A stretch of 64,000 nucleotides of DNA from Perkinsus olseni (lineage: Eukaryota; Perkinsozoa; Perkinsida; Perkinsidae). The position numbers and the translations under genes are program-made. Under the pieces are notes generated by a model, which was not told the DNA's origin, did no database searches, and saw only the letters and a program-made list of their open reading frames with translations. Location: contig JABANP010000022.1 of the NCBI GenBank assembly GCA_013115135.1, positions 124,001 to 188,000 of the forward strand, written 5' to 3'. Shown piece by piece: positions 25,604 through 60,463 of the stretch (the first letter of the stretch is position 1; every line of letters starts with the position of its first letter).

Positions 25604-25625
25604 GGAGAAAATTTCTCCGAGAAAT
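25604..25625. repeat. 22-nt double-turn palindrome (8-bp site type)
   Basis: Core GAGAAA (25605-25610), single A, inverted core (25612-25617), single C, core again (25619-25624). The two single bases are the complements of the bases flanking the cores, so the structure equals N1-N7 + reverse complement of N1-N8 + N2-N8 for the 8-mer GGAGAAAT. It lies about 150 bp beyond the dynein stop codon. Confidence 0.9.
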
Positions 25626-25698
25626 TAAAGGGAAGACTGCACACAAGGATAGTGTCAGGCAGGCAGGCGGAGTAACATCACTTTAGCAGCCTGGGTTT

Positions 25699-25843
25699 TG
25701 CCCTACTCTCTGCCTGAGCGCAGCTCTCCGTGCTCAATACCCATGCCCCAAACTCATCCCTCTTGAAACAAGAAACATCGGTGCTTGTCGGGCTGAGCCG
25801 GTTTTCGTCGTTGGACCCAAATCTCACACACATTGTCGCACAA
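25699..25843 (+). repeat. Dispersed repeat, copy 1
   Basis: This stretch resembles 34379-34517 over about 140 bp. Shared blocks include the pattern around GCCCTAC, TGTGCTCAATA (CGTGCTCAATA here), an exactly shared CTCATCCCTCTTGAAACAAG, then AGCCGGTTT and TCTCACACACA-like ends. Both copies sit a few hundred bp beyond the 3' end of unrelated + strand genes. No terminal repeats or target duplication seen. Confidence 0.75.
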
Positions 25844-27483
25844 TAATGAAATTTCATTGTAGGAAGATAAGCGGAACTCCGTTCTTGCTTCTCTGAGACA
25901 CTTTCCTAGGCTCTCAGTAAATCAGCGTCTAGCTCTCCGATGATGAGAAGTTCTGGGGGACAACCTCCAGGAGCCCATGAGGTGCATCAACGGGGAGGGC
26001 ATCTGCAAGAGATATCCTTATCAGAGCCACCGCCTCATACACGGATGTCTGCGTGCAAGCCGAAAAACGCCACATGGTAATCACTTTTGGAGGGGCGTAG
26101 TGATGACCGCACCCCAGGTCAGTAATGGTCACACATCAGCCACTCCCGCTCCCATCACGGAAGTTCAATACATATCTTAACCTTTCACCAAACTGTATAA
26201 CACAACAAGCTCTTATTCAACGTAGCTTTTAGCAGATTATCTATCGGGATATGAGGTAGGCGCTCAATGTACCCTCACTGATCTATACAGCAGCGAAGCA
26301 ATGAAGCTAGGACACGAGACCACTCACAATAGGAGATATCATCGTGACATCACTCATTACTACAGCGCTGATATGGACGACGATACGTATACATATTCAA
26401 TGAGACAGCAATATCAAATCAGCGTGCGATAATCAACCAGACTTATGCCGGGCACGACAATACAATTGAATTCGCAGCTGAGACGACGTTGTTAATGAGA
26501 ACGAGTGGGCCGAAGAGAACACTATTGCTGATGACGAGCAGCAGCAGCAAGATCGGAGCGGCCGCAGCGGTAGGGAATAATAACTCTATGAATCAATGGT
26601 TCCATGAGCACAACGTGGACAACAGCAATGATCATAGCATAAATTACCACGGAAAAATACAACGTGAAATGTTGCAACCGTAACAACAGATGACTGATGC
26701 TACAGAAAATACGGTGGCAGTAATGCTAACTAATCATACTGGAAAATAGTAGCCCTTGAAGTGTGACGGGCCGCAGCCCGAGCGACCGATGGGTAATAGT
26801 AGCAATCGAAGAGCGACGTTACGATGTCTACAACTTGTCGAAGGGCGTTTATTACAGTCGAGTGCTCACTAGACGATATCAAACCACCTCGAGGGGCCCC
26901 GGAGGAGTGCACGGTGATATAGAGAACAACGATTCATTGATGAAGGAGCTCATGCTACTGGCCAACTCGATAAGAGCTAATGAATGCTGCTACTGCTCGC
27001 TGCTCTCGTTGATGGCTTTGTTGGACGCTGTTGTAGTAGTGGTAGTATCGGAGACCAACCAGCAATAGTGTAGGCCACACCATCTCACCTATAATTCATG
27101 ATCATCATCATCGACAACAACAACAACTGATACGCAAATAAAACAATATCAAAGATTCAGCATATTACAGGGAATAACTATATCGGGTTAATGGTACAGA
27201 GAATAACGAAAGGAGGGAGAATGAGGAGGAGGGAGAGAGACCCGGATAATCATAATAATACCATCACCAAACATGGGACCATAGCAGCAGCCATAACCAA
27301 ATAGCTGCAACCTCAACAACTACGACAAGTAGGCATGTACTACCGTCTAACGCTAGGACAACGTCATTGCATCATCATCAGCAGCGGCAGCGAGGGAGCG
27401 GCTTCTCATCCAACCAGCAAATCAGGAAGCGAGCGATGAGCAATCACGAAGTCACATAGCGTTAGAAAAGACCATATCGACCG

Positions 27484-29010
27484 CTAAGGCCCCCCTCGAG
27501 AGGAGTGTACTCGGATAGGAGGGGGCGGGCCTTCGTAGCGCAGCAGTTTGCCATTAGGACCATTGAAGCCAGCAAGTCCTCCACTAGGTGGGGAGGGATG
27601 GTGCCGATGCTCGAAGGTTGCTGGTGGTGGTGGCGGCACTGGCGGAGGGGGTGGCGGAGGAATCGCCGGTGGCGGCCCTCGGTAGCCCACTGGCGGCATG
27701 GGAGGGGGAGGCGGCGGCGGAGGGCCCGCTGGAACACATCTCGGCTTAGCAGGAGGCGGTGGGGGAGGGGAGCTCCCGCCATAGACTTGCCCGGAGTAGC
27801 GAAAATCATGCCGCTGTTATTGGCGATGGTACGGTGACCCGATGGGTAACTATTCTCAGCAGACGGGGCTATCAGCAAGAGGGCTGCCTCGAGTCTTCGG
27901 CGTGAATGCAGCGAATTGTCGATACAACCTCGGGAGTCCGGAGGGTGCTCGACATTGACGCTAGTAGTACCACATCTATAAATGGAGCTACGCCAGAGGG
28001 ACTTAGAATAGCGTTGACTACTGCCTTCCACACTCGATGAAGTGATGACGCTGCCGCTCGTCCTACTGGAACTTGTCGAGCAATCCTCGTCGCCTGGCTT
28101 GTCAAGGTTACCGAAGAAAGCATCTATGATACGGACAGTGTCACCCAGGTCATAGGCCGAGTAGCTCAGATTGGACACAGCAGGGTCTCGGCCTAGGATC
28201 TTGATATCATAGAGCCGCGGGAAGTACTCGGCCACGAGCTCACTGAACTGGCTGTGGTGGTCGGGCAAGGGCTTGCCAGTGAGAATTTTCAGCAACGACG
28301 CGAAGACGATACCACCGGAACTGACCAGCCACGCAACCTCCTCCGATAAAACGATCCCGCTTGACATGAGAAATTCCCCAAAAACGTCGTGTTCGATTCC
28401 CCTGTGCATCGCCACTGCAAAGTCGAGGCCCGCCCCGCCAACTTCCACCGAGCTGCCGAGCACTTCAACCCTATCAGCCGCGTAAAGATCCGTGAGTAAG
28501 TTGAACTTGAAGTTGAGCTTCCAACAGCACCGCCCCTGGTCCGAGGTTGGGATGGGGCGCACAGTTCCCTCGAGCGTCGGCAAAGGAGAAGCATACTTGA
28601 ACTATTTTAACGAGGTCCACGTTGGCCTTCATAAACCGGTAATTGTACTCGTCAGTATTCTCGAAAGGACCTAAGGTGCGGAAAAGTTGGTATTAGAGCA
28701 CTGCTGTTGCAATCAAGAGCGAGCGTAGCGGGTAAACCCATCCCAGCCCTGTCCGCGGCGTACCCGTTGGCCTGGCGACAATTCCCGGCAGCCTGACGTC
28801 CATCGCTATGTAGGGGTACTTCTCCACCACGTTACGCATTATCTCAGCCTCTTCCTCGAAGTTCGATGCCCAAACATCAATCACTTGTGCCTTCTCTCTA
28901 CTACCACCCCCTGGATCCCCGACCGGGCACTGGGGACAACTAGATTGAGCCCCTAGGGAAACCGCGTTCAATACGCGAGCTGTTTGCTGTTTGAAGTCCA
29001 GATATCTCAT
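27484..29010 (-). CDS. CAF1/Pop2-like deadenylase fold, probably catalytically dead
   Basis: Reads as the CCR4-NOT nuclease family (CNOT7/CAF1). Exon 1 (from about 29010) carries VIDVWASNFEEE and Y-I-A-M-D-V-R-L-P-G-I-V-A-R-P; a middle exon (about 28670-28600) reads TDEYNYRFMKANVDLVKIVQ; then FNFKFNL-like, EFLMSSGIVL and LLKILTGKPLPD blocks. The family uses a D-x-E pair here and an Asp in SGYDFGY. In this gene the first Asp stays (28798-28800) but the Glu is Arg (AGG at 28792-28794), and the second block reads SSGGIVFASLLK with no Asp. So mRNA deadenylation by this copy is unlikely; a scaffold role in CCR4-NOT is inference. The last exon is best read in the proline-rich frame ending at 27484 (runs of 6-8 Pro), reached through an intron ending near 27812. 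It is divergent from the next gene, sharing about 200 bp of upstream DNA. Confidence 0.82.
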
Positions 29011-29208
29011 GGGCCTGGCCGATGGCCGTGAGGGAAGTAAAGGACACTAAGGAGAGGAAATTATAGGGGGTTACTGGCGATTGACGCACGATTCCAAAAT
29101 CACTGTCGCACGCCTGCCCATCTTGAAATCTTGTCAAATCTTATACTTTCTCAACGCATACCATCATGATTCGCGTTTGAGCATCTGTGCGGGATCAAAT
29201 CGCTTTCT

Positions 29209-30796
29209 ATGCTGACGAGTACATGCGTGTTAGTAGGGTGGTTTGTATTGGGACAATCGTCCTTCCGCCGGGCTATGGGAGGCGACGCGTCACTGAGTGG
29301 ACGGCAGCAAGCACGTCATAGTGCCTTATTCGACTTCATCTGTCAGCCCATGAAGCAACTAGCATGTAATACCCGACTTGGGCGGCTATCACTACTCAGG
29401 GACCTTCCTTCAGGCTGGCAACTGGTGGCGGGATGCCTCTGGATGGCTGCTTGTGCCTACGTAAACTGTATCTCCCAGGTGGGCCCCTGCCCCGCTGGGC
29501 CTCCGCCCATCACCTCTCCTCAGATCTATGTCGACAAGTTTCAAAACGAGCACTACCATGGTCGGACACCCCGGAGCTGCTACCGGACTTTAGGCTTCTA
29601 CTTTCTACCCCATATTGAGATACCACACTTGGCAGACTACTGGAACGTGGCCATTGTAGTGGGCACCATGGTCCCGGTAGTAGCACTGGGCGGAAAAAAT
29701 AAAATCGGCTTTCGCGGGGAAGTTTAGTTCCGTGTTAATCGAAATCAAATCTGCAACTCAAAATCGACTTACACGCAAATGCAGCTGCAGAATCTGCTGC
29801 TAGTTCCAGAATTATTTTGGGGACATTCCCGATGCCACGCCTGTGCACAGTGCAACCCGATGGAACTGTTAAACGTGTATCCCTCAGGTTGTGTTATTCC
29901 ACCCGAAGCGGCGGAAAGTGGTAATACCCCTCCTCTTCCTCCGCCCCCAGTTCGGACCCATGTCTGTAGATTTTACGTTTCCTGGCGATCCAGGGCTCGG
30001 TATTCCTGCTGCGCAGCGCCACTATTATCGTAACATTATTGCCACCACCTTACCAACTTTGCGTCAACGTCTCAAGCCCTGACGAGAATGTACGTCCTAT
30101 CGGCAGCACAGTCGCGTGACAGCAACGCTCCGCCTGTTAGGTTTTTCTAGAGGCCGTCAAAATCGTCCTGGGCATTCGCTTCACTTGCGGGGACATCCTT
30201 TTTTCTGGTAATCTCAGGAGTATTCTCATAATCGCAAAACGCCTTGCCGTAGGTCACGCCGCGAATTTCACTTTGATGGCCCTCATCTGGTCGGAGTACG
30301 GCTACGGCTTCCTCGCAGTGGACGCAAGTACTGCCCTACCGGTGATTTGCGACCGGCCTTGCATGTCTCATGCTCAGCCACTCGGGGATATTCAGCACTA
30401 GGGGGAAGCAACCGCGGGCAGATTGGCGGTCGGCATCGCGGAGGCCCTGTCCTGCATTTTGTGTTCCGTCGGCTGCTGCCTTTGTTATGGTGGGCAGCAG
30501 CAATCTCGGGGTAGGCTTGGCCGGTCTGGTCTGCCCCTCAGCCCCCTGCCTTGCCAGGTACTTCGTCATCGTAGCGACACGGTTCCACTACACTGTGGAC
30601 GTTTTAGTAGCGATCATAATAGTGACCAAGCAGTGGGGGCTGTACCACATGTAGGGCTGGCGGTGGTCGTATCGTACCAAGACTCTCTCCCAGGTACATC
30701 CGGACGCCCCGGATTATGAGACGGCTTGGCTTCTTGCGATGGTACGAGCAGAAGCAGGACCTCGCTTCGGCCTCGGCGAAGAAGTACGGAGTTTAG
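29209..30796 (+). CDS. Sphingomyelin-synthase-like (PAP2_C) lipid phosphotransferase
   Basis: Multi-pass membrane enzyme family that moves a phospho-head group onto ceramide or a related acceptor. Seen: a hydrophobic helix LVAGCLWMAACAYVNCIS (about 29420-29475), a helix near 29640-29680, then CGDILFSG (30186-30207) joined by a 45-nt intron (30208-30252) to HAANFTLMALIWSEYGYG, giving the family motif CGD-x2-F/Y-SGH. The second active-site block is RFHYTVDV (about 30576-30605), keeping the His and Asp of H-Y-T-V-D. A last small intron (about 30653-30695) leads to a basic cytosolic tail ending at TAG 30794-30796. The start could be ATG 29209 or 29275. The stretch 29690-30145 between helices is not explained and probably contains an intron or insertion. 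Substrate unknown. Confidence 0.75.
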
Positions 30797-31135
30797 TAAT
30801 GTTGTTTGGAAGTCATTCCCTTCATACAGGACCCCCAGGATGTCCCCGGTGGGAGCGCGGACACTGTCGATTGAGATGGAGCCAATACCAGAACACCCCG
30901 ACCTCGAGGCTCTAGAGGCTGGGAAATTGGGCAGTGAGTCCACAGCATCGTTCTCCGTATTAACTACTGATTTCAACCGCAGGTTCTGAAAGTTCGACCA
31001 AGGAGAGCAGCACCGCGGCGGGGCCTCAGCTGTATGGGAGATCTCGATCGAGTAGGGAGGCACTTGCTTTCTAGCCCGCACGCTGTTATCTTTCTTAGCT
31101 CGGTTTAGCAGCGACTTCACCGACATAGACGACAC
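30797..31135 (-). CDS. Possible small Ser-rich protein, minus strand
   Basis: An open frame from an ATG at 31135 encodes about 110 residues rich in Ser/Asn/Arg before it runs into the antisense of the lipid enzyme gene. It opens with a basic helix (S-V-K-S-L-L-N-R-A-K-K). No domain recognised. Codon texture looks plausible but nothing else supports it, and the plus strand is also open over 30726-30989. Confidence 0.22.
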
Positions 31136-31982
31136 TTTTGTGATCGAGGACTCCGCCTCTGAGGTCCTGGTGTGACCCTCTCAGGATGTTCCTGTTTGTT
31201 GAAGTTGTACTAAAGTTTGCTTTTCTTGCCACCCGCTACACCCCAGGCTTTACAGTCAATACCATTCCTTCCGTAACATTCAAGTGTACGATTACTACTT
31301 GCCGCGACAGCTTATTCAGAGACGGTAGTAGTGGTGTTCAGTTCCGATGCTTTCCCTCACACGAACGTATCTATGCTGGCAACCGAAGGAAGCGTTGCTA
31401 GCTGCAGGTTGCTGAATGCATGACGGAGCGGAGGTCTCGGGCGCCCACCTCAAGCTTCCATGGTTCTCGAGGATCTTCTCGCGAGCTAGCCCCGGCCCGG
31501 AATGCTGCCTGGCCCTCCTTGATGCCTTCACTGCTGAGTACACACACCTGTTGTGGTGGCATCGACCCCCTCCCTGTTAGACGGGACACTCTGGGGCGGA
31601 GGGACAGCCGACCACGAGAGCGACTGGTCACTCTGTTGAATACGTTAGGCGAGCATCTGGCTACGTCGCTGGACGAGTGAGCTAACCCTTTTGAACGCCC
31701 TTATCGAGGCATGGGGCTAGCATCGAGGTACGGGAAGATCAAGGCAGCCGCGGCCACGGAGAAGGGTGAGGTCAGTGGGCAAGGGCAGGAAGGTATGTCG
31801 AGACCACCACAAGTAGCTAGGCTGTTGACGCTTCCGTGATGGAAGGCCCCCTTCGTAGTTGCGGGAGTTCGGAAGGTGAAGAAGACCCTTTTGGGGCGTC
31901 TCATGGCAGCCACCAACTCTGAGCAGGTGGACGACCCCTAGGGGCCGACTGACTGAGTGTTTGGTAGGCCCGGTCAGCGTTG

Positions 31983-34070
31983 ATGGAGGTTGAGAGATCG
32001 CTGAGCCGATGGGAGGCCGTCACGGACCTTGACGATTTGTGGACCAAGTCGGTGATTGCCAAGCTTGCTTCCTTCGTTGCCTACATTGCCGCATACTCGA
32101 GCCAGGAGAACGACGGTAGCCGACGGGCGGCTGAGAGAAACTCGCATCCGCCCCTGCAGAGGGCCATACTCCCTACTTCGACCCGCCTAAGTCCACCCTC
32201 AACTCGATCAAGACAGACGAGAGATTGTCGACGTGCAAGGGCAGGGTTATCGAGGTATCCTGAGGGGCTCGGAGGAGGCACGGAGAACAACACCACTATC
32301 TAGGTTGCACGAAGATTCCTCGAAGACAACCCGTACCTGTCGGCGGTGGTGGACACGGAGCTTAGAGGATCTGGTGTCTTTCTAAGTGGCAAGTATTCTG
32401 ATCGTGTTGCCGGTCATCCCTCTCTGGACGGGTCTTAGGCCCCTGGACGAAGCCCCGTGGGGGTCGACCGTCGGTGAGGATTGCGCGTTGATGCGGAGGT
32501 CTCTGCTGGCGGAGGTGTCCTTCTTCGCGTGGGTGCCTCCGATACACCTGCGACGCGTCACTCGGCATCAATTCACGATCGGGATGGTAGGAAGTCAGGT
32601 TGAAAGTCGCGAGCCTTCCCCCAGTTGGTGCGCAACACCAGGAGCTGCGCGCTCGCCACAGGAGCCTCCACAAGTGCGCTTCTCGGGCCCGGCGTGGCTG
32701 CGTTCGATGAGTATGTTGGTTAGGTCGATTCTGTGGTGGGAGCTTCCGAGGAAGTGTCTGGAAAAGAACAGAATTCACTCTGGAGTAGATCGGACGCCCA
32801 CCCAGAAGGACGCGGTCTTCGCCCGCGAGTTCGTGTGAGTTCAGCGACGGAAGTACCGTTGTAGCCCGGGATAGCAGATTTTTCGAAGTTGAGGTCGAGC
32901 AGCATGTGAAGCCTTTCCCGTGGCAGACAGACGCGGACTTTCACGCATTCTTGGATGAGGAGAAGGCCCGCTGTGCGTCCACTCGCCCTGAGGTCCACAG
33001 GACGCCCCCACGGCTTGCTCAGCGGAGAGCTCAGATTCTGCAACCGGGCCTCGGTTACCTGACCGCATCACACGTCCACGCCAGCGGCGCTACGAGTCTG
33101 CGGATAACTGCCGACATCGTAGGCGTTGCTGCCGCTGTAGCGATGCTGCCAAGCACAGCGGCAGATGTCGATCCCCGGGCTGGTCGAGAAGACGGCTCAG
33201 CTGTGCCGAGATCTCGTGTGGCTCGACTTGTCGGGGTGCGGCATCGGATACGGGGAGCTGGCAGGGATCTGTGACTCTATCCCCGCCGGGAAACTACAAG
33301 TTCGTTGGTCGTCGGTCATCAGATGAATCGACGATGGCGTCCATCAGGTGGTCGACTTGTCGAAGAACAAGTTAGACGACCGCTGTTCTCCCCTTTTGTG
33401 TTCCCTCACACACAGCCTCCTCGGCAGCCTTCGAGTCCTCAACCTGGCCGATAACCCTGGGCTAACAGGCATCACTGCAGCCTCGCTGGCCAAGTGCATC
33501 GACGGTGCAAGAAGTTCCGAGCAAGACACTCCAAATGACGTCGTTGAAGTAGCTTGTTCGAACGGGAGCGGACGAGCGAAGCCACGGCAGCTGGAGTTCA
33601 TTGACTTTACTGGCTGTGGTGTGGACGAAGAGAGCATCCAGGAAGAGCTGGACCAGGTGACTGAAGCGACAACGATCTCATCGAAGCCTCAACTTTCAAT
33701 GTTAAGGCCTTGGGAAGCTCCGGGAAGAAGCTGCCTGCTTATCGTCGACATCAGAACGACGTACAACCACCGAGATATCCTTCCAAAGTCAAAGAAGGCT
33801 TCAAGTCTGTGGATGACCTCACTTTCTTGTAGATCCCCGTTGAAGCAATCAAGCGTCATATACAGGAAGTTTTCCAGCGTGAAGATGACGTACGGTAGGC
33901 TGGAGGGCTGCTGGTTAACACGGCCTCTTTCTCTCAGGCCTCTGCATCATCGGACAAAACAAGGAAACGTTTGTTATTACTGCGGGGCACCGCCGAGCGG
34001 CATCCGATGCTCAACATGCGTGAAAAGGGCACGTGAAGTGGTGAGAAGACGAAGATATGTTGCGTTGTAA
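31983..34070 (+). CDS. Leucine-rich-repeat protein with C-terminal zinc ribbon
   Basis: Split open segments on + make one likely gene: VERSLSRWEAVTDLDDLW (31983 on), EKLASAPAEGHTPYFDPP (about 32138 on) spliced near 32260/32304 to VARRFLEDNPYLSAVV, then ARDSRFFEVEVEQHVKPF near 32860. Ribonuclease-inhibitor-type repeats follow: LVWLDLSGCGIGYGELAGI (about 33215) and VDLSKNKLDDRCSPLL ... LRVLNLADNPGLTG (33351-33470), then IDFTGCGVDEESI. A final intron (about 33896-33935) leads to an exon with CYYCGAPPSGIRCSTC, a C-x2-C-x8-C-x2-C ribbon, and an Arg-rich end at 34070. RI-type repeats bind proteins; no partner is suggested. Upstream open pieces at 31420-31920 may be earlier exons. Exon borders are approximate. 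Confidence 0.5.
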
Positions 34071-34517: not shown

Positions 34518-34892
34518 TCGAGCTGTGCCGAGCGACACGTTCCATCGGCAATTTACACCGGTTATTTTTCCAGTCGAAATCGTGCGCTGTTTGGACGATG
34601 TTCGGATGTTTCATCGACAGCCGGTAGGACAAGTGGACAAGTTGTGTCAACGGCAGCTTGCGGACGTTGGTAACGTGTTCTTGGGATAGGCACAGAGTAT
34701 GAACCAACGCGACAGTGTCGCGGCGACACCAGTGAGAAGGAAGGAATGAACACAGATGAGATATGAAAAGCAATCGGAATTATGATGACTCGTGCTGCTG
34801 CTGCTGCTGCAAGTAGCGGCGGAAAACTACCATGCTATCCGGAACAACCTCTGAAGCATCCATTGCTAGAATCTGAGCAGACATCGTGTGAT

Positions 34893-35543: not shown

Positions 35544-35559
35544 TTATTGAAATGAATCC

Positions 35560-36927: not shown

Positions 36928-38076
36928 CTACTCCTTCTTGGCCTTTCGATTGCCACCCTTCACATAGCGACCAACGAAGAACTGCGCGAAAAGAACCAGG
37001 TAGGCCGTGTACCTGCAAAATGGGAAATGAACAAAAACCGCTGGAGGCAGAAGGTGGCAGTACATTAGGAATGCTGCGAGCAGATCTTCAGTGGCCCCAT
37101 CACAACGAGGAACTGTCCTCAAGGAATAGTAATGGACGGCCACAACAAACATGCCTGAGAAAAACAATCGATCTCCCGACAGACTCATTCATGATGGCAT
37201 CGCGAGAGCAGAGAAGTGACGCGCAGCTCTGACGGCTCGACTACTGAACACTTACCGATCAACATTTGAGTGATCTGTAGAATGGTGACAGTGAGACCCC
37301 ACTTGGGCTTATGGCCAACTGAAGATAGGAAGTAGTAGAAGTACATGATAGAGTGGACCATGTAGTTCATAGTGGCAAAGAAAATACCGGTAGGCTGTTC
37401 GTAAGCCCCGGCATGCCAACAGTAGAGCAACACAGTAGCATGATGGAACCAATGGAGGAAGTTAACGTTCTTCTTCCTCAAGACCAAGAACGCTGTGTCG
37501 ATGAGCTCGAAGTATTTGCTAAAAATGAATAGGCCGACCCAAGCCCCAGTAGGGCCGGGCGCGTAGGAGCCACCGACGTTACGGCAAATGAAGTAGAGTG
37601 GGCCGTTGGTGAGGGTTCCATTGATGAGATGGGGCAATGTACGAATCATGCCGATGACGGAGAAGATAGCGACTCGCTATTAGCGAGGAAGAGGTTCCAC
37701 AGGGCTAGAGGCTTCTTCAAGTTGAATGCCGGACGGTTCTTCATAATACGCTGGCCAACCGGTATGGCGATGAGGTAGCAGGCAACCACCACATACGAAA
37801 GCCACCAGTAATGGCGCATCACCACCAACTGAAAGAATGACTTGTATTGGAGGGTTCACATCACGGCCCCCCACTCACCATCCTTGCCAGTAGTGTTTCT
37901 GAGTTCTCCCAGGCGGCTGGACCGATGTAGGGCAGGGCCCACTTGGCCAGGTCATCGGTATAGACAGGGTCGACGAAGCCGTACTCAGTACGGTTGTTAA
38001 TTTCGGCGCGCAACCAGATTTGGTCCCAAACCTCGGGGGAGCGGTCCATGACATTATCAAGGGGCAGTTCGATCAT
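36928..38076 (-). pseudogene. ELO-family fatty acid elongase, copy A, frame broken by a 14-nt insertion
   Basis: ELO enzymes condense malonyl-CoA with an acyl-CoA in the ER membrane. Exons: 38076-37879 (ATG chosen by match to copy B), 37828-37256, 37154 to about 37072, and a last exon ending at 36928. All introns sit where copy B has them. The catalytic box HWFHH is present (about 37445), as are the family steps ELIDTAFLVLRK and MNYMVHSIMYFYY. The C-terminus ends in Lys-rich KAKKE, a possible ER retrieval signal. At 37666-37687 a double-turn palindrome adds 14 nt after ...WNLFLA and shifts the frame to a nearby stop; without it the frame continues into IFSVIGMIRTLPHL exactly as in copy B. The rest is intact, so the break is recent, allelic, an assembly fault, or removed in some way. 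Confidence 0.85.
37666..37687. repeat. 22-nt double-turn palindrome inside the ELO copy A exon
   Basis: Core TAGCGA (37667-37672), single C, inverted core (37674-37679), single T, core again (37681-37686). The single bases complement the flanking G and A. Copy B has the uninterrupted 8-mer ATAGCGAG at 39534-39541 at the same codon, which gives the pre-insertion state. Confidence 0.95.
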
Positions 38077-45822: not shown

Positions 45823-45844
45823 CATGCCATTGGCATGATGCCAA
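45823..45844. repeat. 22-nt double-turn palindrome
   Basis: Core ATGCCA (45824-45829), single T, inverted core (45831-45836), single G, core again (45838-45843). Single bases complement flanking A and C. Outer symmetry extends one base further at the first turn (8-nt arms). Confidence 0.93.
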
Positions 45845-46085: not shown

Positions 46086-46107
46086 GTCATATGATATGAC
46101 TCATATC
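46086..46107. repeat. 22-nt double-turn palindrome
   Basis: Core TCATAT (46087-46092), single G, inverted core (46094-46099), single C, core again (46101-46106). Single bases complement the flanking C and G. The first turn has 9-nt arms (46084-46102). Confidence 0.93.
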
Positions 46108-50587: not shown

Positions 50588-51236
50588 GGCACAAACATCG
50601 GCTGTCACTAAATTCTCTGTCCTAATCACTAAATCTAGCGCGCGCCCACCTGATCGATATCTGCGCGCTTTCCTACTGCTGCCGCCTCTTCCGGACTCCG
50701 GTATCCGGAGCCGATTAAAGTGCCCTTTGGTAACCCTTTGGGTTTATGGTTGCCTTGGGTAACCAGAAACGGTTTCTGGTTGCCTTGGGTAACCCTTCGG
50801 GTTCCTGGTTGCGCGTGCCCAACTGATCGATATCTGCGCGCTTTCCCGCTGCTGCCGATTCCTCCGGACTCCGGAGCCGATTACATTGCCCCTTCCGGTT
50901 TCTGGTAGCCTTGGGTGAGCCCTCGGGTTTCTGGCTGCCTCGGGTAACCCTTCGGGTGTCGGGTTGCCTTGGGTAACCCTTCCGGTTTCGGGTTGCCTTG
51001 GGTAACCCTTCGGGTTTCTGGTGGTAATTCTTTTGTTTTGCTGCTGAGAGCAAACTTCATCACCATGCCGAGAGCGGAACGTGTTCGCTGGTTGTATACG
51101 ATGGGCCATGTGCGCTATGAGCAGTGCAAAACGCAACACGTGCCTGGGGAACGCGGCGCGCAGATAACGATCAGTTGGGCGCGCGCTACTTTTAGTGATT
51201 AGGACGGAGAATTTAGTGACACTCGATGGACGTGCC
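50588..51236. mobile_element. Non-autonomous Mutator-like (MULE-type) DNA transposon
   Basis: Terminal inverted repeats of about 81 nt: left 50588-50668, right 51156-51236. The inner 66 nt of each end match at 61 positions; the outer end is GGCAC/GTGCC with a few mismatches just inside. The element is flanked by a perfect 9-bp direct duplication TTCGTTTTC (50579-50587 and 51237-51245). Long inverted ends plus a 9-bp target duplication are the Mutator hallmark. Total 649 bp, with no transposase; the interior is a minisatellite. It sits just upstream of the pepsin-like gene pair. Confidence 0.9.
50720..51030. repeat. Minisatellite inside the transposon
   Basis: About nine degenerate units of 24-27 bp built on GGTAACCCTTCGGGTTTCTGG with TTGCCTTG between. 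Each unit contains a short AACCC-TTC-GGGTT hairpin. A non-tandem piece (TGATCGATATCTGCGCGC and about 60 following bases) occurs twice, near 50652 and 50822. Confidence 0.85.
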
Positions 51237-51454
51237 TTCGTTTTCCGTTGTCCACTCTCGCGACGCGGGTAAATGAAGGAGCTCGCCTCTGCTGTGAGTC
51301 ACAGCCTGTGATTCTCGGCATCGTCGCCAAGGTTCAGTACATGCTCGGTGTTTGTGTAATCTTTCAATGCTTCAGCCGTTGAAATTCAGCGAAGGCCTTC
51401 CTCCCGCAGAGATTTTGAACGCATAGTCTTCACAGGGACCGTTCACCCTTCGAC

Positions 51455-52612
51455 ATGACATACCGAACGACTTTTCTCCTCGCTTTGACCCTACAAGTCC
51501 GCTGTTCCGTCAAGTCCCCCGTCTTCTACGAGAGAGGTCACTTTCGCACTGAAATCGCTGTAAACGGCCAGATAGTCCATCCCATAGTGGACACGGGCTC
51601 TGTTAGCTTTCATGTTGTTGGTAAGAATTACTTCGAGGGTTCTTGTCGACGTTTCCCGTTCAACTGTTACAATCTTACCTTCAACGATCTTGTCGACCAG
51701 GCATTAGAGAGTTTCACGGCAGAGGGAAGTATAAAAAAGATCTATGCCAGGCGTGAGTATTCAATGCGCGCGCTGAAGAAGGAAGTCCTGATGGGCATTC
51801 CCGAATCCATCAAAACAAGAATGAAATTCTATGCTGTTGTGGCTGCTCGGAGGCAGATGGAGAGCTTGGAAGCGAAGGCCGATCCCGAAGCGATCCTCGG
51901 CTTGGGTTACCCTCGAGAGGGGACAAACTCCATTCTGGGTCAGCTAGTGAAGTGCGGTTTCATCAGGAATGAAAACCGAGTATTCACCTTGATGCTGCCT
52001 GCTAGTAATTCAGGGATCGGTGAACTCACCCTAGGCAGTTTGAAGCCCGAGGATCCGCTCGAACTCGGCAGCCTAGTTTACTTGCCAATCTTGCATATAA
52101 CCGGAGAGAAGGTGACATGGAAAGTGAAGATGTCTGCCATATCCGTGAACGGTGGGGGCTGTTCCAATATCGATGGACCCGTCTTACTGGACTCTGGGTC
52201 CCCGTCCCTAGCAGGCCCAGCTCATCAAGTAAACGAACTCGTAAGGTTCATCATGACGCGGGCGCGCTTGTCGAAGGGCGAACAAGTGATTCGAAGGACT
52301 ACGTCGGGTTCATACTGGTTGCACTGTGATGATGTGAAGTATATTCCGAGCCTCGAGGTGTCGTTCGATATAGACCAGAGCACATGGGGAAGCATAACGA
52401 TCAGCAGGGAGTTTGTGGTGCGAGAGTTGAGTGACAGAAGAGGAATGTGCTCCCTGGTAGTCAGGGCGCGGAATATCAACTACTGGAGGCTGGGGGAGCC
52501 TTTCTTTCGGAATAGGACGATACGTTTTGATGCTCAAAAAGGGAGGCTGGGTATGAGTCTTATTCACTACAAGAAACCGGTTACAGTATCGGACGCAGCT
52601 TCTGTGGTGTAG
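51455..52612 (+). CDS. Pepsin-like aspartyl protease (A1 family), secreted
   Basis: Single-exon gene of 385 codons. A signal peptide at residues 1-18 precedes the two catalytic blocks: I-V-D-T-G-S in the N-lobe (about residue 47) and L-L-D-S-G-S-P in the C-lobe (about residue 249), each followed by the expected hydrophobic stretch. AILGLGYP and GELTLGSL match the family's conserved strands, and the tail ends RIRFDAQ...GRLGMSL. No clear propeptide, so activation may differ from pepsin. Copy 2 lies 0.6 kb downstream in the same direction, and the 140 bp before each ATG are similar, so the duplication included the promoter. The MULE-like element lies about 200 bp upstream. Confidence 0.95.
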   Translation: MTYRTTFLLALTLQVRCSVKSPVFYERGHFRTEIAVNGQIVHPIVDTGSVSFHVVGKNYFEGSCRRFPFNCYNLTFNDLVDQALESFTAEGSIKKIYARREYSMRALKKEVLMGIPESIKTRMKFYAVVAARRQMESLEAKADPEAILGLGYPREGTNSILGQLVKCGFIRNENRVFTLMLPASNSGIGELTLGSLKPEDPLELGSLVYLPILHITGEKVTWKVKMSAISVNGGGCSNIDGPVLLDSGSPSLAGPAHQVNELVRFIMTRARLSKGEQVIRRTTSGSYWLHCDDVKYIPSLEVSFDIDQSTWGSITISREFVVRELSDRRGMCSLVVRARNINYWRLGEPFFRNRTIRFDAQKGRLGMSLIHYKKPVTVSDAASVV

Positions 52613-52960: not shown

Positions 52961-52982
52961 ATCGCAGACTGCGATTCGCAGT
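52961..52982. repeat. 22-nt double-turn palindrome with a third partial turn
   Basis: Core TCGCAG (52962-52967), single A, inverted core (52969-52974), single T, core again (52976-52981). Single bases complement flanking T and A. A further 5-nt inverted piece turns around 52981 (to 52986). It lies between the two pepsin-like genes. Confidence 0.9.
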
Positions 52983-53202
52983 GCGATTATCACACTCAAC
53001 TGCACTCTGGCAACGCGAACGTGGGAACCAGAGATTAGCTCACCTCCTAGTGCTGTGGCCCTTTTAGCATAGTCGCCAAGGATCGGTATATATTCGGTAT
53101 TTGCGTAATCTTCCATGCTTCAGCCGTTGAAATTCAGCGAAGTCCTTGCTTCCGCGGAGATTTTACACACATGGTATCCACAGGGACCGTTCCTCCTTCG
53201 AC

Positions 53203-54507
53203 ATGACATACCGCACGACTCTTCTCCTCTCTCTAACATTACAAGCCTGCTGTTCCATCAAGTTACCCGTCTCTTACCGTAGAAGTTCTACGAGAAGTTA
53301 CTTCCGCACTGAAAACGCTGTAAACGGGGAGAAAGTCCATCCCATAGTGGACACGGGTTCTGTTAGCTTTTATGTCGTTGGTGAGAACTACTTTGAGGAT
53401 TGGTGTCGACGTTACCCACCCAACTGTTACAATCTGCCCCTCAGCGAGCTCATCGATCAGACGTTACAGAGAGTCACGGGAAAGAGAAGTGTAACGAGGA
53501 GCTACACTAAGCTCACGGGCTCGATGTGTTCGCTGAAGAAGCAAGTCGAACTGGGCGCTCCCGAATCCTTCAAAATTAAAATGCAATTTTATGTTGTCGT
53601 GGATTATGTTGTCGGAGCAAGGTGGACCGCTTGGGAACGGACGCCGGACCTGAAGCGATCCTCGGCTTGGGTTACCCTCGGGAGAAACAGAACTCTATTC
53701 TGGATCAGCTAGTCAAGCGCGGAATCATCAGACATGAAGATCAAGTGTTCACCCTGATGCTGCCTGCCAATAATTCAGGGATCGGTGAGCTTACCATAGG
53801 CAGTTTGAAGCCCGAGGATCCTCTCGAACTTAGTTTACTTGGTAGGTGGTGTCCCCTACCATTTATATAAACTAATTGTTGATTTGAAGCGACGCAAGTC
53901 CTTCAATCAACTTTGTTCGGCCCTCATGCAGTATCTCGATGCTCGCAGGGGCTTATTGTAGTGCCGGGCAGGCACAACTTTTTTTCGCCTCTGTTTTGTA
54001 CGAGGCCCACCATTGAATATTCGCGGAGTATCGACTTCTGGAGGCTATCTGGGTATCGAGGGACCTGTCTCACTGGACTCTGGCTCTCCGGCCCTAGGAG
54101 GCCCAGCTCATCAAGTTCGTGAACTCGTGTCCTTTATCACGACGCAAGCGCACTTGTCCAAGGGCGAACAGGTTGTTCGAAGGACTACGTCGGGCTCTCA
54201 CTGGTTGCATTGCGATGATGCGAAGTTTCTACCAGACCTTGAGCTGTGGTTCGTTATAGACAAGAGTACACGGGGATATCTAACGATCGACGGGGAGTAT
54301 GTGGTGCAAGAGTCAAGAGACAAGAGAGGAAGCTGCTTGCTGGCAGTCAGGCCGCGGAGTATCGACTTCTGGAGGCTGGGGGCACCTCTCTTTCGGAATA
54401 GGACGATACGGTTCGATGTTTCCAGGGGATCCCTGGGCGTGAGTCTTATTCAGCACAAGGACAAGGCGACAGGTTGGAACGCGGCTTCTGATAAAGAGAG
54501 TTCCTAA
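53203..54507 (+). pseudogene. Pepsin-like aspartyl protease, second copy, broken
   Basis: Tandem paralogue of the gene at 51455. The start, signal peptide, I-V-D-T-G-S and most of the N-lobe are present (53203 to about 53615). The frame then shifts near 53610-53625, continues as GPEAILGLGYPRE ... GSLKPEDPLE to about 53835, and is replaced by about 170 bp of unrelated sequence starting GTAGGTGG. It resumes near 54010 with LDSGSPALGGP and the intact C-lobe to the stop at 54507. The middle piece ILHITGEKVTWKV of copy 1 is missing. An intron over 53852-54010 could save part of this, but not the frame shift. Confidence 0.85.
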
Positions 54508-54592
54508 CGGCTGCCGTACAATGTACGGCGTACATGTTGCGACTAACTCTGACCTATCCCTGTGTCCCATTGCTGCTGCAGGGAAGACCTCC

Positions 54593-54618
54593 ATGATGAA
54601 TCATCATCATTGATGATG
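54593..54618. repeat. Double-turn palindrome in ATG/CAT repeats, absent from the paralogous site
   Basis: ATGATGA, single A, TCATCAT, then CATCATCA, single T, TGATGATG. The turn centres (54600 and 54610) are 10 apart. The matching place after pepsin copy 1 (about 52721-52728) has a single ATGATGG. The difference is about 20 nt. Confidence 0.8.
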
Positions 54619-54904
54619 GATGCTGTTGTTGTAGTGGTCACTACGGCACTACATGTTGTGCGCTGTGATGTTCACATATCCGTATCAGTTGCTGTGTGAC
54701 AATGAGGGACAATACGACAAATACGCCTATGGGCGCCTCATTCCAACACGTTGCCTAGGAGGGCGTCATTGTCCGAGAGAATGCTGAGTTCAGGAGCATG
54801 GCTTCCAATTATCCAAGATTTACTCGCGAGTGTCTCGGGTAACTGACTGTTACTGCCATTCATGACCTCCTGACGCAACAACTATCGAGTTCCAATCGTA
54901 CACC

Positions 54905-55120
54905 TCTCAAACTCATCAATACCCATGTCCGACACTCTTAGACTCATCAATACCCATGTCCGACACTCTTAGACTCATCAATACCCATGTCCGACACATG
55001 TCCGACGGTCTGTAGAACGGTTCCCCTTCTTCTTTTCACGCGCCACTTTTTTACTCCGCGCGCCACTTTTTCCCTCCACGCGCCACTTTCTTCCTCCACG
55101 CGCCACTTTTCCCCTGACGC
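54905..55120. repeat. Two adjacent minisatellites
   Basis: First, about three copies of a 31-bp unit beginning ACTCATCAATACCCATG and holding TCCGACACTCTTAG (about 54910-55005). Second, about five copies of a 21-22-bp unit CGCGCCACTTTTT with CTCCA (about 55035-55120). They lie between pepsin copy 2 and the next gene. Confidence 0.85.
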
Positions 55121-55372
55121 GCGGCCTATGGGTCTCCTATCACCAAGCACCGGGTCCGCTACCACCAGTGACCTCCCGAGACCGCCCGACGGCTCCCGAC
55201 TGCGCAGCGCACGTTTTCTGCCCGCGCCCGAACAAACTATTTTCGGTTTTGGCCCTGCGCAGCCATTACTGACTCTTCAGTCGAAAGTCTTGAGCAACAA
55301 GCGTTGAGTTGAGTTAAGAGTCTTGAGTCAAGCCTCTCGACCTTGGTAGTTAGCTTGGTACTTCTCCGATCA

Positions 55373-55762
55373 ATGGCTGGAGGCAAACGCCGTGGCCGAT
55401 GGGCCGATAAGAAAAAAGCCGCGCTCAAAGCACTCGATAGAGTTTGTGCCGAAGCGAACTACGACGTCAATCTGGTTGAACGAGAGATACTAGCGGAGCT
55501 TCCCCCCTATATGCAACACTCTGTTTGCTGTCGTTGGACGAGGCTGGTTTCACTTGGCATGACCAATCGCACACTTGGTCTTGCAACAAGGAGATCTGAT
55601 ATTGCTCGTGTGAGGGCCATAGCTGAAGAAATGGGATCTTTCTTCTCTGCATGGTGTGACAATAATCTTCGGATGTGCCAGTCGACGGTTACTCGGCGCC
55701 CAACTCGAGTCCATAGAGATGCTCCTTCCCCGTGTAATACATGTGCGCCGTGTGAATGTTGA
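55373..55762 (+). CDS. Small basic hypothetical protein
   Basis: Open frame of 129 codons from ATG 55373. It opens with a basic patch (GGKRRGRWADKKKAALKAL) and a helical part (VNLVEREILAELPPYM), then a Trp/Arg segment and a Cys-rich end (CNTCAPCEC). It might bind nucleic acid. No family recognised. Downstream to 55900 are degenerate CGACTCCC-type repeats. Confidence 0.35.
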   Translation: MAGGKRRGRWADKKKAALKALDRVCAEANYDVNLVEREILAELPPYMQHSVCCRWTRLVSLGMTNRTLGLATRRSDIARVRAIAEEMGSFFSAWCDNNLRMCQSTVTRRPTRVHRDAPSPCNTCAPCEC

Positions 55763-55958
55763 TGCCTCCTGCCAGTTACACAAAGATCCGAGGTTGGAAC
55801 TCATTCGACCCCTCCATTAGCGACTCCCCACGACACTCCTCATTCGACTTCCCGTGCGACTCCCCATGCGGCTCCCGAGCCTCAAGAGCCTTCTGATTAG
55901 AGTGTTTGACTTCTGCGACCATACTATGATAACGACTCTGCGCAATCGCGAGCCTTGT

Positions 55959-56689
55959 TCATTCCCTGAGACCAACTAAGAATAGTCTAAGCGCAGCTTC
56001 GTGTCCTGGACTCTTCTCTTCCTCGAGTGCGCTGATCAGGCGGCTCCATTTGACAGGCGCAGTGTAGCAAAAGTGCAGGCCACGATTGTCCAAAGAGAAT
56101 CTGCGACGACAGCTACAATGATTGTTGTAATTATTCCACAGCCATGAGCAACCCGAGGCGAAATGATACCACCATCGATCCACGGTCATAGGATATGCCG
56201 CGTGTCCGACACTCACATGCTGCGCTTGGTTTCGAGAATTAAGCTATGCGCGAGGCTCGAGTATCCCCACTGGGACCCGCGGGCTATACGTCGGATCATC
56301 TCGTATAACAGATACGCGCAGTCCCCCGTAGCAAGCAATTGTGCGAGATAGGACAAATCGTAGAGGCTACGGATCGTTTGCTGTCGTCCTGGTAACTGCG
56401 AACAACGTCGAAACTATACAACAAGTGCAGCAGCTCACCATGCTTACCTGAACGAGCTCGTCTCGGACAATGGGATAGTTCTTCAGAATGAATGGAGCAT
56501 CTATGTGAGCTGGTACGCAGACTCCTGAGTAACACTTACAACCTGGGCTTGAACCAAGGTTCGAATGCGTCGAGAAATGAACTCTTTCTGACCTTTCTGC
56601 CCTTTCCTGTCACATCCCAGGGCTTCCTGGATCGAAACTTCTACGATCGCGGCGAATAAGGATTCCATCCGTCCGAAAGGCTCTGTCAT
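55959..56689 (-). CDS. Unknown protein, three or more exons
   Basis: Start ATG 56689 gives MTEPFGRMESLFAAIVEVSIQEALG and FISRRIRTLVQAQ. After an intron, ILKNYPIVRDELVQ (about 56485-56445), a further intron (to about 56395), then LPGRQQTIRSLYDLSYLAQLLATGDCAYLLYEMIRRIARGSQWGY (about 56393-56260) and a last exon with KWSRLISALEEEKSPGHEAALRLFLVGLRE ending at 55959. The joined product is helical. Spliced frames read much better than any single open frame, which supports a real gene; family unknown. Confidence 0.45.
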
Positions 56690-56823
56690 TTGCACTGAGA
56701 AGGGTCCTCCACGATATCAAGGAGCACTGGGAATCTAGTTGACATCGCTCTTCTCATAGACGTAGGATTATTCTACTGGGTTAATTTTTGAGGAATCATT
56801 CTAGATGCCGGGTTCAAGTCTAC

Positions 56824-57096
56824 TCAATCGATTTCAGAATGCTGCTCACGTCGAACCGACCCACTTTCGACAGTTTCGCACACAGAAGTCGGAGAGCGCC
56901 TCGGGCCGCTCGATGGGATAATCTCAGCTAGGTCCCCGCTAGTGCTGGATTGAAGGGCTTTCTCCCATCTACTATGACGTTGACAGTAGCCCTGCAGACT
57001 TCTGGCGGCAGCTGTGCAGCCAGCGCGGATACAACGTCGACCCCCACCATGAGCAATGCAGTACCTGATAATATTGGTGGTTTCCTCGCCCGCCAC
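56824..57096 (-). CDS. WRKY19-like zinc motif protein, 5' end not found
   Basis: The exon begins after an acceptor CTGCAG near 57097 and reads IIRYCIAHGGGRRC, then IRAGCTAAARSLQGYCQRH. The pattern C-x2-HGGG-x-RC-x4-GC-x-A-x7-C-x2-H is the short zinc-like unit found in tandem in WRKY19-related and many protist proteins. Here only one unit is visible, followed by a Ser/Arg-rich tail to the stop at 56824. More units may lie in an upstream exon to the right of 57130. Role unknown. Confidence 0.5.
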   Translation of the reverse strand: MAGEETTNIIRYCIAHGGGRRCIRAGCTAAARSLQGYCQRHSRWEKALQSSTSGDLAEIIPSSGPRRSPTSVCETVESGSVRREQHSEID

Positions 57097-57169
57097 TGCA
57101 GGGCCACCAGTGCCTCGATAAATTTTCGGCGACCACGGGCAAGTATATTACGGGTTGTTCGTACTTAGT

Positions 57170-57900
57170 AGATCAGCTTGACTTCTTACTTGGCAACATC
57201 TCTGTCTGACCCTTTCCGCGCCAGTTTAGTGCAGTGTTGTACCGCGCAGACGGCGTGCTTTCTAGAACCTGATGGTCCGGGGAACAGATACGCCATGTAC
57301 CCGACACTCTCTAGTCGTAACTAGTTTGCCTCTTGAACCCTCCAACCGCAGCGCAATCGCTTGGCATTTAAAGGAAGTCTCGTTCACACTGAAGCATCAT
57401 CGTTATCATCGGTGGACTTGACGCAAGATTCATATATGCATTTATCGGGAGCGTTGCAGGAACCACAGATGTTGTTGAAGCAATAGTTCCCCTACTAGCG
57501 CGATAGTGCGCCGTTTAAGGAAAACGCAAGGATAGGAAAGGGCGCAAGATAGTCATTTAATTTTGGCTTGACCGTGTCAGCTTGAGTCGATTTTATTGTA
57601 GCTGCACTCTTTCTATAATTTACTGCACGCCCGTATGTCAGCGGTAACATACACTAAGGACATTGCTGAGGACATAAAGTACGTTCGATTACAAAAATTC
57701 CCATACACTCCCTCAAGCCACGACATCAGTACTGACTTAAGATACGGCACGTTTGCCGGCGTACCCCGGTCACAAGAGCCGAGCCGGATTTGGCGGAAGA
57801 ACTGGCAACTTTCAGAGAAAGAAGCAGCGGAACACAGGACTGTGTACTCCTAAGCAAACCAGTACTCAGGATTCGGTATTCCACGCAACAGGTTCTGGAC
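57170..57900. other. Interval with no firm gene
   Basis: A 72-codon frame at 57635-57853 is open but motif-free. The interval probably holds the promoter of the MORN gene on its right. Confidence 0.35.
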
Positions 57901-57904
57901 GTCT

Positions 57905-60365
57905 ATTGACAAGTCAGGGGCCAAGATAATAGGGTGCAGTCCCGAGAAGGCTGCGAAATACGTTGCTTTTGGGTCCTATGTTGGAGGATGGAAGGCCAAT
58001 AGACGACATGGTTACGGCACCCGACGGTAGGGGTCGCAGTGATGGTCGCGAGCCTTCTTGATGAGGGGCGGATGGCCAATGATAGCCTTGTGCGGTTTTT
58101 TGGGAACTGGGTTACACTATGTAGATTAGAGTGGACGCGGCATTATGTCGTGGTGAGGTACGGCTGGTTCGTCGTGTCTTTGTCAGATCCTTCGCCGTTG
58201 GATCACGTTATGATGGGGAATGGAACGAAGGCATGCGACACGGTGAGGGAACGCAGTGGGTCCGATGTAAAAACGGAAAGGGAGTTCGGAAGTGAGTTTC
58301 GGGGTGGCTCAGACGTCTAGCCCTGGACTAGGTCGGTGGTCGTGAAGGTCTTAACTCGACGTTCTTACCACTAGAGAATAATAACCAATGGTTATTAACC
58401 ATTGAATCCTGCTTTGCCTTTTGCAGGTCCTACGCCGGATCGTGGGTGAACGACAGAAGAGAAGGCTTCGGCACAGGTTGCTACGAGGATGGGTCTGTCT
58501 ACAAGGTACCTATTGCCACGCTTGTCGACGCTGTAACACATGTCTGTGTAGGGTAACTGGGTGAAGGACCATCGGGAGGGCGAGGGAACCATGTTCTACG
58601 CCAACGGTGATATCTATCGCGGACAAGTACAGTGACGGGTCGTAGCGCAGTGGAAGTCTGTCCTCTCAGTGGCGCCAAGGGAAGCGCTCTGGCTTTGGAA
58701 CGTTGGTGGTCGGGAGAACAGGAGACCTGTGAGCCGTCAGCGTTGTCCGCTTCACAGCAGGAACCATGGATTAGGTACGAAGGGCAGTGGTTGAAGGACA
58801 GGAAAGAAGGTCCTGGACGCTACTATTATCGGTCGCGGAGGAAGGTACCCTCATCTACCATTCGAATGGATAGCCGATGGTCACGTGTTAGGTGATGGTA
58901 GGGGAGTGGGCTGATGATATGTGCAACGCAGGGTCGGTGTCAGCATACGAGGATGATCTCGAGCGTAAGTGTGTATAAGTTTGTATACTTGGCTTAGTAA
59001 TAGAGCGAACAATGGGGATGTCAAGCGCAGGCTAGCGTTGACAATGTGTGGCGCCGTGAGCTTAGCTCGCCTCAGATGCTGCAGAGCACATAGTCGTTCT
59101 ATGTGATGCTTGGATGCGGCGCCACCGTTCCCGACACAGTATTCGGTTCGATGAACCCTAGACTCCTCCAGCGCCCTGTTTTCAGTGAACATCCCCACTC
59201 TTCGACTTGAGGGCGCTGATGATCTGGTTGAGGGCAAGTTGGAGGAGATCAGGGCAGACCGTTTCGTAAGAAGCTGCGCCCCTCAATAACAATTGCGAAT
59301 GATATTATTTCCAGCTCTTTCGAGTTCTCAACACACCCCTTGCCGACCTCTTCGACTCCACTGATCTGGATCGCATCCGTGGCAGCTATGAGGCAGCCGT
59401 CAACAGTAAGCTGATGAAGGACCCTTCCCTCGTGTAGCACTCCTCAGATTCCCACGACGGCACGATAAGTCTCCTCTCACTGAAGGCGCTGCTGCTGGCC
59501 CTCTTTGGCATACAGTTCGTTGCCGAGGAGCTATGGGAACTGTGCGTCACTGTGGGCGCCATCACCCGCGATGAGGCCCAGCGAGGTAACAGTCACTTCT
59601 CGGGCGCTGCTTATCAATGGCGAGGGCGATGATGGTGTCGAGGGTATCATCTCAGCTTTCCTCCTTACGGAGTCGGAGCTCGAGAAGATACCAGAGTCCT
59701 CCCTTCCCAACGACAACGAGGAAGTCATTGAACGCGTAGTGGACGACTTAGTTGATGATGAGGATGATGACGATGAGAGCAAGGAGCAACGAGAGCAAGT
59801 TGCATACCGTTACTTCACTATCCCCGTCGACGCCTTCACGTTGGACCGTTTCGCCAGGTAGCCAGGTCATGTCGACGAGGGTGCTCACGTGGTTGCTCAG
59901 AATCGTTTCACTCGTTACGGGCAGACTCGGGCCCGGAGCATTGGATGGGATTGATGTGGATAGTGATGCTGATATCGGTAGGAGATCTCAGTAACGACTC
60001 CCGTGAGGTAGAGCTCGGCTGGTCTTCCCTTCAGACGATCAGATCGAAGCGGGCTGAATGGCATGGATCTGTGAGCAGTTGTCTTGGGAGTATAATAACG
60101 AGGTGTCTACGCATAGTGTCGAGTTAACCGAGTCATCAGCTCCCGGATTTGCTACCAGTGGACGAGACATCCACATTACATTCCACTCTAGAGACCATTC
60201 TCCTGCAAGTGATATCAACTTTTGTCGACGAAAGAGGGTGTAATCGTGCGAACTGCCCTGGTGCTGCACCGTACTCGCACTGGCAAGGATCACCTTATCT
60301 CGCTCGCCAGATACGCACAGGCGTTTCAGTCCGCTGACCTTCGACGAGACAGTCGGTCATTATAT
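57905..60365 (+). CDS. MORN-repeat protein, possibly radial-spoke-head type
   Basis: MORN units appear exon by exon: SYVGGWKANRRHGYGT (about 57977-58025), SYAGSWVNDRREGFGTGCYEDGSVY (58429-58504), GNWVKDHREGEGTMFYANGDIYRG (58556-58625), RYEGQWLKDRKEGPGRYYY (58772-58830). The repeats bind membranes or act as structural rods. A non-MORN half follows: LFRVLNTPLADLFDSTDLDRIRGSYEAAV (about 59312-59400), SLKALLLALFGIQFVAEELWELCVTVGAITRDEAQR (about 59480-59585), an acidic stretch DDLVDDEDDDDESKEQ (about 59740-59790) and FTIPVDAFTLDRFA. Repeats first and a helical half after recall RSPH10B of flagellar radial spokes; this is a suggestion only. The start and the exact 3' end are not resolved. Confidence 0.55.
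58381..58402. repeat. 22-nt double-turn palindrome in a MORN-gene intron
   Basis: Core TAACCA (58382-58387), single A, inverted core (58389-58394), single T, core again (58396-58401). Single bases complement flanking T and A; both turns have 9-nt arms. It ends about 25 nt before the intron's 3' acceptor (TTTTGCAG near 58426). Confidence 0.93.
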
Positions 60366-60463
60366 ATCGTCTTAGCCGACACTTCGAGCCGGCCTACTGG
60401 CTCAGCGGCTGAGCCTCAGCCCACCCGCTTCCACCCTATGTGGGAGGTAGGCTGTGAGACTTC

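Follow-up and report, generated by a model that had tools for sequence, protein, structure and literature searches.

Probable hAT transposon excision footprints of one uniform 22-nt form in the genome of Perkinsus olseni

A recurrent 22-nt form and its proposed origin

A 64,000-nt stretch of the Perkinsus olseni genome (contig JABANP010000022.1, positions 124,001 to 188,000; hereafter the window) contains nine perfect copies of a 22-nt form in which the first seven letters of an 8-mer (N1-N7) are followed by the reverse complement of the whole 8-mer and then by its last seven letters (N2-N8). Each copy presents two turns, 7 nt apart, with one unpaired base per turn. At a probability of about 0.88, we consider these 22-mers to be excision footprints, that is, the repaired donor sites of cut-and-paste transposons of the hAT superfamily. 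An initial annotation of the window had proposed this origin from six of the copies, and the proposal is supported by hAT transposase genes, by elements with 8-bp target site duplications (TSDs), by a lean toward T and A within the 8-mer, by homologous places that differ by 14 nt, and by half of the geometry at the broken end of one hAT element. To our knowledge, hAT is the only superfamily that combines an 8-bp duplication with flank hairpins placed one base off.

Exactness and abundance of the 22-mers

The rule holds without a mismatch at all six of the places first reported. While those copies are real, the total was undercounted, as a scan of the same form at lengths 3-15 gave nine perfect length-8 copies in the window, the additional ones starting at 34708, 54514 and 60400. 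At length 5, two copies were found where one is expected, and no copies were found in the window at lengths 6, 7 and 9-15. The chance expectation given in the initial annotation, about 2 in 10,000, is correct (2.4e-4 in the window with equal base use).

The count by length was also run on a 264-kb sample composed of the window and a further 200 kb, taken from the window's own contig and from one other. Length 8 alone was enriched as a perfect form, with 26 copies against an expectation of 0.001. Lengths 4 and 5 were near chance (71 vs 64 expected and 6 vs 4 expected, respectively) and lengths 6, 7 and 9-12 had no perfect copies in this sample. Adding 25 kb from around hAT domain matches produced a 289-kb sample, for which one block-shuffled version served as the control. 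Copies with zero, one and two violations numbered 42, 29 and 26 here, compared to 0, 0 and 3 after shuffling; a few of them overlap each other or are copies of a single repeat. The form is thus far more frequent than in shuffled sequence. Near-misses at other lengths also exceed the shuffle (length 6 with one violation, 27 vs 8; length 7 with two violations, 49 vs 14), which we take to be parts of length-8 sites together with simple repeats.

Single turns were counted as palindromes with a one-base loop and arms of at least 7. The 264-kb sample contains 118 of them against 16 expected, with other loop sizes at 10-20. Full or slightly decayed footprints account for 74 and the remaining 44 are single turns, eight of which have arms of 10-23. 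The single turns may represent one-sided hairpin openings, though about 16 are expected by chance. Two long palindromes of this kind, which perhaps also arose from one-sided openings, are located at 60464-60498 of the window (arm 17) and at L011:4137-4183 (arm 23), each range being the listed position extended by the arm length.

For the whole assembly (61.5 Mb, 968 contigs), a fixed pattern was used as a proxy, TRRRYA-N-TRYYYA-N-TRRRYA, which is obligatory for any footprint with a TRRRYA core. It was matched 243 times (119+124), while a version with two-base turns was matched twice (1+1). Length 8 with one-base turns is the sole exact geometry that exceeds chance. Among the first 100 of the 243 matches, 74 fit the full rule exactly, for which chance would give 0.4%, and 19 were off by one letter. 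Many of these 100 are copies of one repeat, with 13 sharing an identical 20-mer, and 51 distinct exact 20-mers are represented. By density, the genome may hold some 6,000 perfect copies. This figure, derived from 264 kb of two contigs together with the pattern counts, is rough: the sites cluster, leaving 15 of 26 ten-kb bins empty, and the TRRRYA class is absent from the 26 sampled sites, although about one is expected.

The 8-mers are diverse: 88 perfect sites, many of which are copies within repeats, contain 57 distinct sequences. Some sites travel with repeats that have spread, one of them within a Mutator-like element that has 9-bp duplications. Only two of the 26 sampled sites fall in stop-free frames of at least 150 codons, against 9.9 expected, and 10 in frames of at least 100 codons, against 17.8 expected. 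Together with the series of near-perfect copies, the 22-mers look like a class that was produced over a long time and has been decaying neutrally. Around hAT domain matches, eight 3-kb loci contain 16 perfect copies in 25 kb, with one site shared by two loci; for comparison, the 200-kb contig sample has 17 and the window has 9.

Homologous places with and without the 14 nt

Six homologous places were identified where some copies have the 22-mer and others have the plain N1-N8, each difference amounting to 14 nt. At CTAGAAAC, three of four copies have the 22-mer and one has the plain 8-mer. The 22-mer is present in one of four copies at ATATCCTG, where it carries one substitution, and in one of three copies at ATTTCATC. 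The other three places lie in a 480-bp repeat, for which 26 matches were listed and 13 were fetched for comparison. At GCGCAGAA, nine of the 12 covering copies have the 22-mer and three the 8-mer, and at both CACCAGAG and ATCACGCG the 22-mer is confined to a single copy out of the 11 that cover the place. In these repeat copies, a few plain 8-mers bear a substitution. When the rule is applied to the 8-mers, the footprint it gives agrees in every letter with the observed one at five of the six places and differs from it by one letter at the sixth. From the distribution among copies, a gain of the 14 nt appears to be favored at CACCAGAG, ATCACGCG and perhaps ATATCCTG.

As a whole, the 480-bp repeat (L080-L092) carries about six old footprints, some of them decayed, plus two new ones specific to single copies. 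Elsewhere, at L032:552, a 22-mer is nested in an older footprint that is un-nested in the paralogs.

hAT genes, elements and target preference

The hAT transposase that the initial annotation suggested looking for is represented by several genes. The genome has 21 Dimer_Tnp_hAT domain matches and the 14 control genomes have none, although the latter make a weak control, as they appear to be prokaryotic. A putative hAT transposase is encoded by an open reading frame (ORF) of 581 aa that combines DUF4371 with Dimer_Tnp_hAT. A hAT transposase ORF of this genome matches a P. olseni protein at 95% identity across 74% of its length, and a P. chesapeaki protein at 69% identity.

The hAT elements carry the terminal inverted repeat (TIR) TAGAGATGGGCA or TAGGGGTGGGCA and 8-bp duplications. 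One element that overlaps a hAT domain match has the TIR TAGAGATGGGCA at 12 of 12 letters and an exact 8-bp duplication, GTCCGGAG, and in two further elements the duplication agrees at 7 of 8 letters. A general TIR/TSD scan returned 21 rows that are mostly chance; the only hAT-like place among them was this same TAGAGATGGGCA element with TSD GTCCGGAG, seen as two overlapping loci. An element of 442 bp is present in L066 and L079, flanked by GCTCCTCC/GCTCCTTC, whereas its place is unoccupied and present as a single copy in the paralogs L077 and L078; no footprint was found there. Filled and empty sites, as called for in the initial annotation, therefore do exist as paralogs, but a filled site paired with a footprint was not found.

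The 8-mers themselves lean to T at N2 and A at N7, resembling the nTnnnnAn targets that the hAT transposon Hermes favors according to the excerpted text of PMC10368747. With a background of 23%, T occupies N2 in 46% of the 85 distinct sites having at most one violation and in 42% of the 57 distinct perfect sites. T....A outnumbers A....T by 243 to 126 in the genome pattern search and by 9 to 3 among the 57 perfect sites.

Half of the geometry at truncated hAT elements

The clearest link of the geometry to hAT is provided by three paralogs, L072, L073 and L074, that derive from one event and retain a remnant of about 285 bp from a truncated hAT element. At the intact end, the 8-mer CGCGGCAG stands directly beside the TIR TAGAGATGGGCA. 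At the broken end, the sequence reads CTGCCGCG-GCGGCAG, which is the reverse complement of N1-N8 followed by N2-N8. Its occurrence by chance would take 15 matching letters. Such an arrangement could result from an excision in which the hairpin was opened on one side while gap repair was interrupted on the other. A search for the half geometry accompanied by a distant copy of the 8-mer gave 17 rows; a hAT end adjoins the 8-mer solely in the L072-L074 group and the remaining rows look like chance.

A second case is ambiguous. At L070:163-189 (C206:42962-42988), a hAT terminal repeat comes directly after GGGGACA-C-TGTCCCC, which is half of the geometry, and the opposite end of the element is truncated. 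This could be the result of one-ended cutting or of an insertion into an old footprint.

A model for the origin of the 22-mer

From partial views of PMC5873905 and PMC4763223, hAT transposases leave hairpins on the flanking DNA and the footprints center on the complement of the base that bordered the element. Insertion of an element into N1-N8 would produce N1-N8 [element] N1-N8. Excision would then leave hairpin-capped flanks with the turn one base off the element end, the left hairpin being N1..N7-N8'-N7'..N1' and the right hairpin N8'..N2'-N1-N2..N8, where primes denote complements. Nicks well away from the tips would give the left flank a 3' tail of N8'..N1' and the right flank its complement, the tails being complementary because of the target duplication. 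If the tails anneal over as many as 8 bp and the gaps are filled, the product would be N1-N7, the reverse complement of N1-N8, and N2-N8, which is 14 nt longer than the unoccupied site. The identical product would arise wherever the two nicks fall, provided that the combined length of the tails is above 8 nt. The hairpin intermediate, its opening positions and the annealing are all inferred from the product. The footprint reading of the initial annotation is retained with one refinement: whereas it had the hairpins join through the shared 6-mer, the overlap of the opened tails would probably take in all 8 nt, N8'..N1'.

The genome has one Ku-domain match and PolA-family matches at four loci, and for this reason no claim is made that classical end joining is missing.

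Uniformity of the product

What is new is the uniformity of the product. In 307 kb that includes related repeat copies, products were scored for every split of P-nucleotides. A total of eight P-nucleotides was found at 60 sites. Totals of 4 to 7 occurred 2, 0, 1 and 0 times and totals of 9 to 14 occurred 0, 0, 1, 0, 0 and 0 times. Totals of 0 to 3 occurred 484, 52, 21 and 13 times, where chance background and simple repeats mask any signal; a total of three on one side had 9 matches against about 1 expected. Several direct-repeat classes with totals of 0-1 also seem enriched, which is attributed to tandem repeats. The outcomes that this P-nucleotide test can detect, deletions being invisible to it, are dominated by a single product in which both partial copies flank the full 8-nt inverted copy. 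Such uniformity suggests that tails derived from the hairpins anneal.

The Ac/Ds elements, studied in plants, S. cerevisiae and C. albicans, offer the nearest comparison with respect to palindromic P-nucleotide insertions at the complement of the base that adjoined the element, which are attributed to hairpin opening in the excerpt of PMC5873905. The same excerpt describes mixed products, with 28 types among 128 in C. albicans and arms of up to 20 nt in yeast, whereas a single product dominates in P. olseni. A mix of products as in Ac/Ds did not show in the 307 kb at totals of 4-7 and 9-14, which together had 4 matches against 60 for a total of eight. In the titles and abstract openings searched, with subscription journals mostly outside the scope, neither the 22-nt form nor its dominance in a genome is described.

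Other systems share some of the features. Hermes and Kat1, both hAT, make hairpin-capped breaks in the flanking DNA, with 8-bp duplications in the case of Hermes (PMC10368747 and PMC4763223, in excerpt). The P. olseni ORF differs in having DUF4371 with a hAT dimerization domain, and its match to Hermes is insignificant (E 0.7 and worse). Repair at mPing, a PIF/Harbinger element, is likewise guided by TSD-derived microhomology, and it is precise by the title of the source (PMC4561436, seen in part); here, annealed hairpin tails would instead give a fixed 14-nt inverted insertion. Introner elements of Amoebophrya also scatter short inverted and direct repeats through the genome of a dinoflagellate parasite. 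As excerpted from PMC7789003, they are introns with direct repeats of 3-5 nt and inverted repeats of 8-20 nt, while the 22-mers here are without an element.

Weighing the alternatives

Several observations count against a hAT origin. Three to four of the six contrasts are unpolarised, as N1-N8 could also have been regained at these places through loss of the 14 nt by recombination-like deletion across the direct repeats N2-N7. The contrasts come from hand-chosen copies, two of which (C22, C882) were picked for a span that is 14 nt longer. Repeated flank and paralog searches identified no locus that is filled in one copy and has a footprint in another. The classic (1,1) product, with one P-nucleotide on each side, is not clearly enriched in 264 kb (6 vs 4.0 expected), with 3 vs 1.0 for the length-9 control. 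N2 prefers T only moderately, and deviations also occur at N1 (G, 36-40%) and N3 (T, 34-36%). The longest ORF of the GTCCGGAG-flanked element has no Pfam match, and a hAT-like end pair at L067 has no duplication. Finally, the roughly 6,000 footprints far exceed the recognizable hAT matches, so each element must have hopped many times or elements must have been lost.

The strongest competitor, though an unlikely one, is a replication or repair process, either a double template switch or a nuclease with an 8-nt stagger, that writes the inverted copy without any transposon. Such a process would suit the copy-specific 14-nt gains at two positions of the 480-bp repeat, where the other fetched copies have the plain 8-mer and no element, as well as the lack of a filled and footprint pair in the searches made. 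Template switches, however, should vary in length and offset, while only length 8 with one-base turns is found. The process would also have to explain separately why T....A is preferred and why a broken hAT end shows half of the geometry; a mutator would have to share the base preference of hAT and to act at hAT ends. The initial annotation had held a mutator with a fixed 8-bp stagger to fit equally well. That process is unlikely, and it leaves the half geometry linked to hAT unaccounted for.

A little less credible is that another superfamily (Mutator-like, Transib/RAG-like, P or Merlin) left the footprints. The comparison is by duplication and hairpin features, the genome not having been searched for these superfamilies. 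A Mutator-like family of 650-bp repeats is present, with one copy in the window; however, the duplications read by eye at that copy and at three or more others are 9 bp long. The family was rejected as the source of the 22-mers given these duplications, and no site at length 9 was found in the 264 kb. RAG and Transib make a flush cut and a 5-bp duplication. A footprint of their type was rejected too: in the 264 kb, length 5 is near chance with one-base turns, and the filter let through no length-5 product with a flush turn. Flush palindromes in general number 18 vs 16 expected in 264 kb.

Very improbable are an assembly or sequencing artefact, in which fold-back errors generate the inverted copies, and a short regulatory or RNA hairpin under selection. 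The former would agree with two contrasts that are each confined to one contig copy, but fold-back errors should neither keep to a size of 8 nt nor prefer particular bases, and the sites are common to diverged paralogs and decay through point mutation. The latter would agree with self-complementary 22-mers lying mostly outside long stop-free frames, but the 8-mers are diverse, copies decay and homologous positions without the 22-mer exist; in addition, no Rfam match in the window overlaps a 22-mer.

Sites and neighboring features in the window

The six perfect footprints known from the initial annotation, each matching the rule in the window scan, are at 25604..25625 (N = GGAGAAAT), 37666..37687 (ATAGCGAG), 45823..45844 (CATGCCAA), 46086..46107 (GTCATATC), 52961..52982 (ATCGCAGT) and 58381..58402 (ATAACCAT). 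Those added by the scan are at 34708..34729 (CGCGACAC), 54514..54535 (CCGTACAT) and 60400..60421 (GCTCAGCC). A violation-tolerant scan located two decayed footprints with one violation each, at 50689..50710 within the Mutator-like repeat and at 51291..51312, for which N is GCTGTGAC or GCTGTGAT. None of these features is assigned a strand. Four further non-overlapping places have two violations (51370, 53118, 53271 and 55320). The footprint at 50689 is perfect in several of ten other aligned copies of the Mutator-like repeat, so this event is older than the spread of the repeat.

The Mutator-like element itself spans 50588-51236 (about 650 bp) with TIRs of about 80 bp and the 9-bp duplication TTCGTTTTC, and is found at no fewer than 15 further places. 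A repeat of 181 bp at 53844-54024 has 23 further places at 95-98% identity among the matches listed. Eight fetched copies have common extra flanking sequence that the window copy is without, and the repeat has no Rfam match. The ORF at 51455-52612 has relatives with the aspartic-protease domain PF00026, and its two best matches other than its own protein are from P. olseni, at 83% and 89% identity. A tRNA gene is located at 63606-63678.

Significance for Perkinsus and for hAT transposition

The hAT footprints described earlier are heterogeneous (PMC5873905, in excerpt), and they are hard to recognize against a genome background. With 14 redundant letters, the 22-nt signature checks itself, and it seems that, even where the element is missing, past jumps could be counted, located and dated. 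Questions that become approachable include how often elements hop without multiplying, which sites they land on and leave, and how hairpins are opened in a little-studied cell. Each scar in an exon would be a 14-nt frameshift.

We judge it to be an even bet that the repair of hAT breaks in Perkinsus has essentially one outcome, with deep hairpin opening and annealing across the whole duplication. If so, hairpin opening would always be deep, through a fixed cut or resection, and the genome would be a legible and datable ledger of thousands of transposon departures, nearly without other outcomes.

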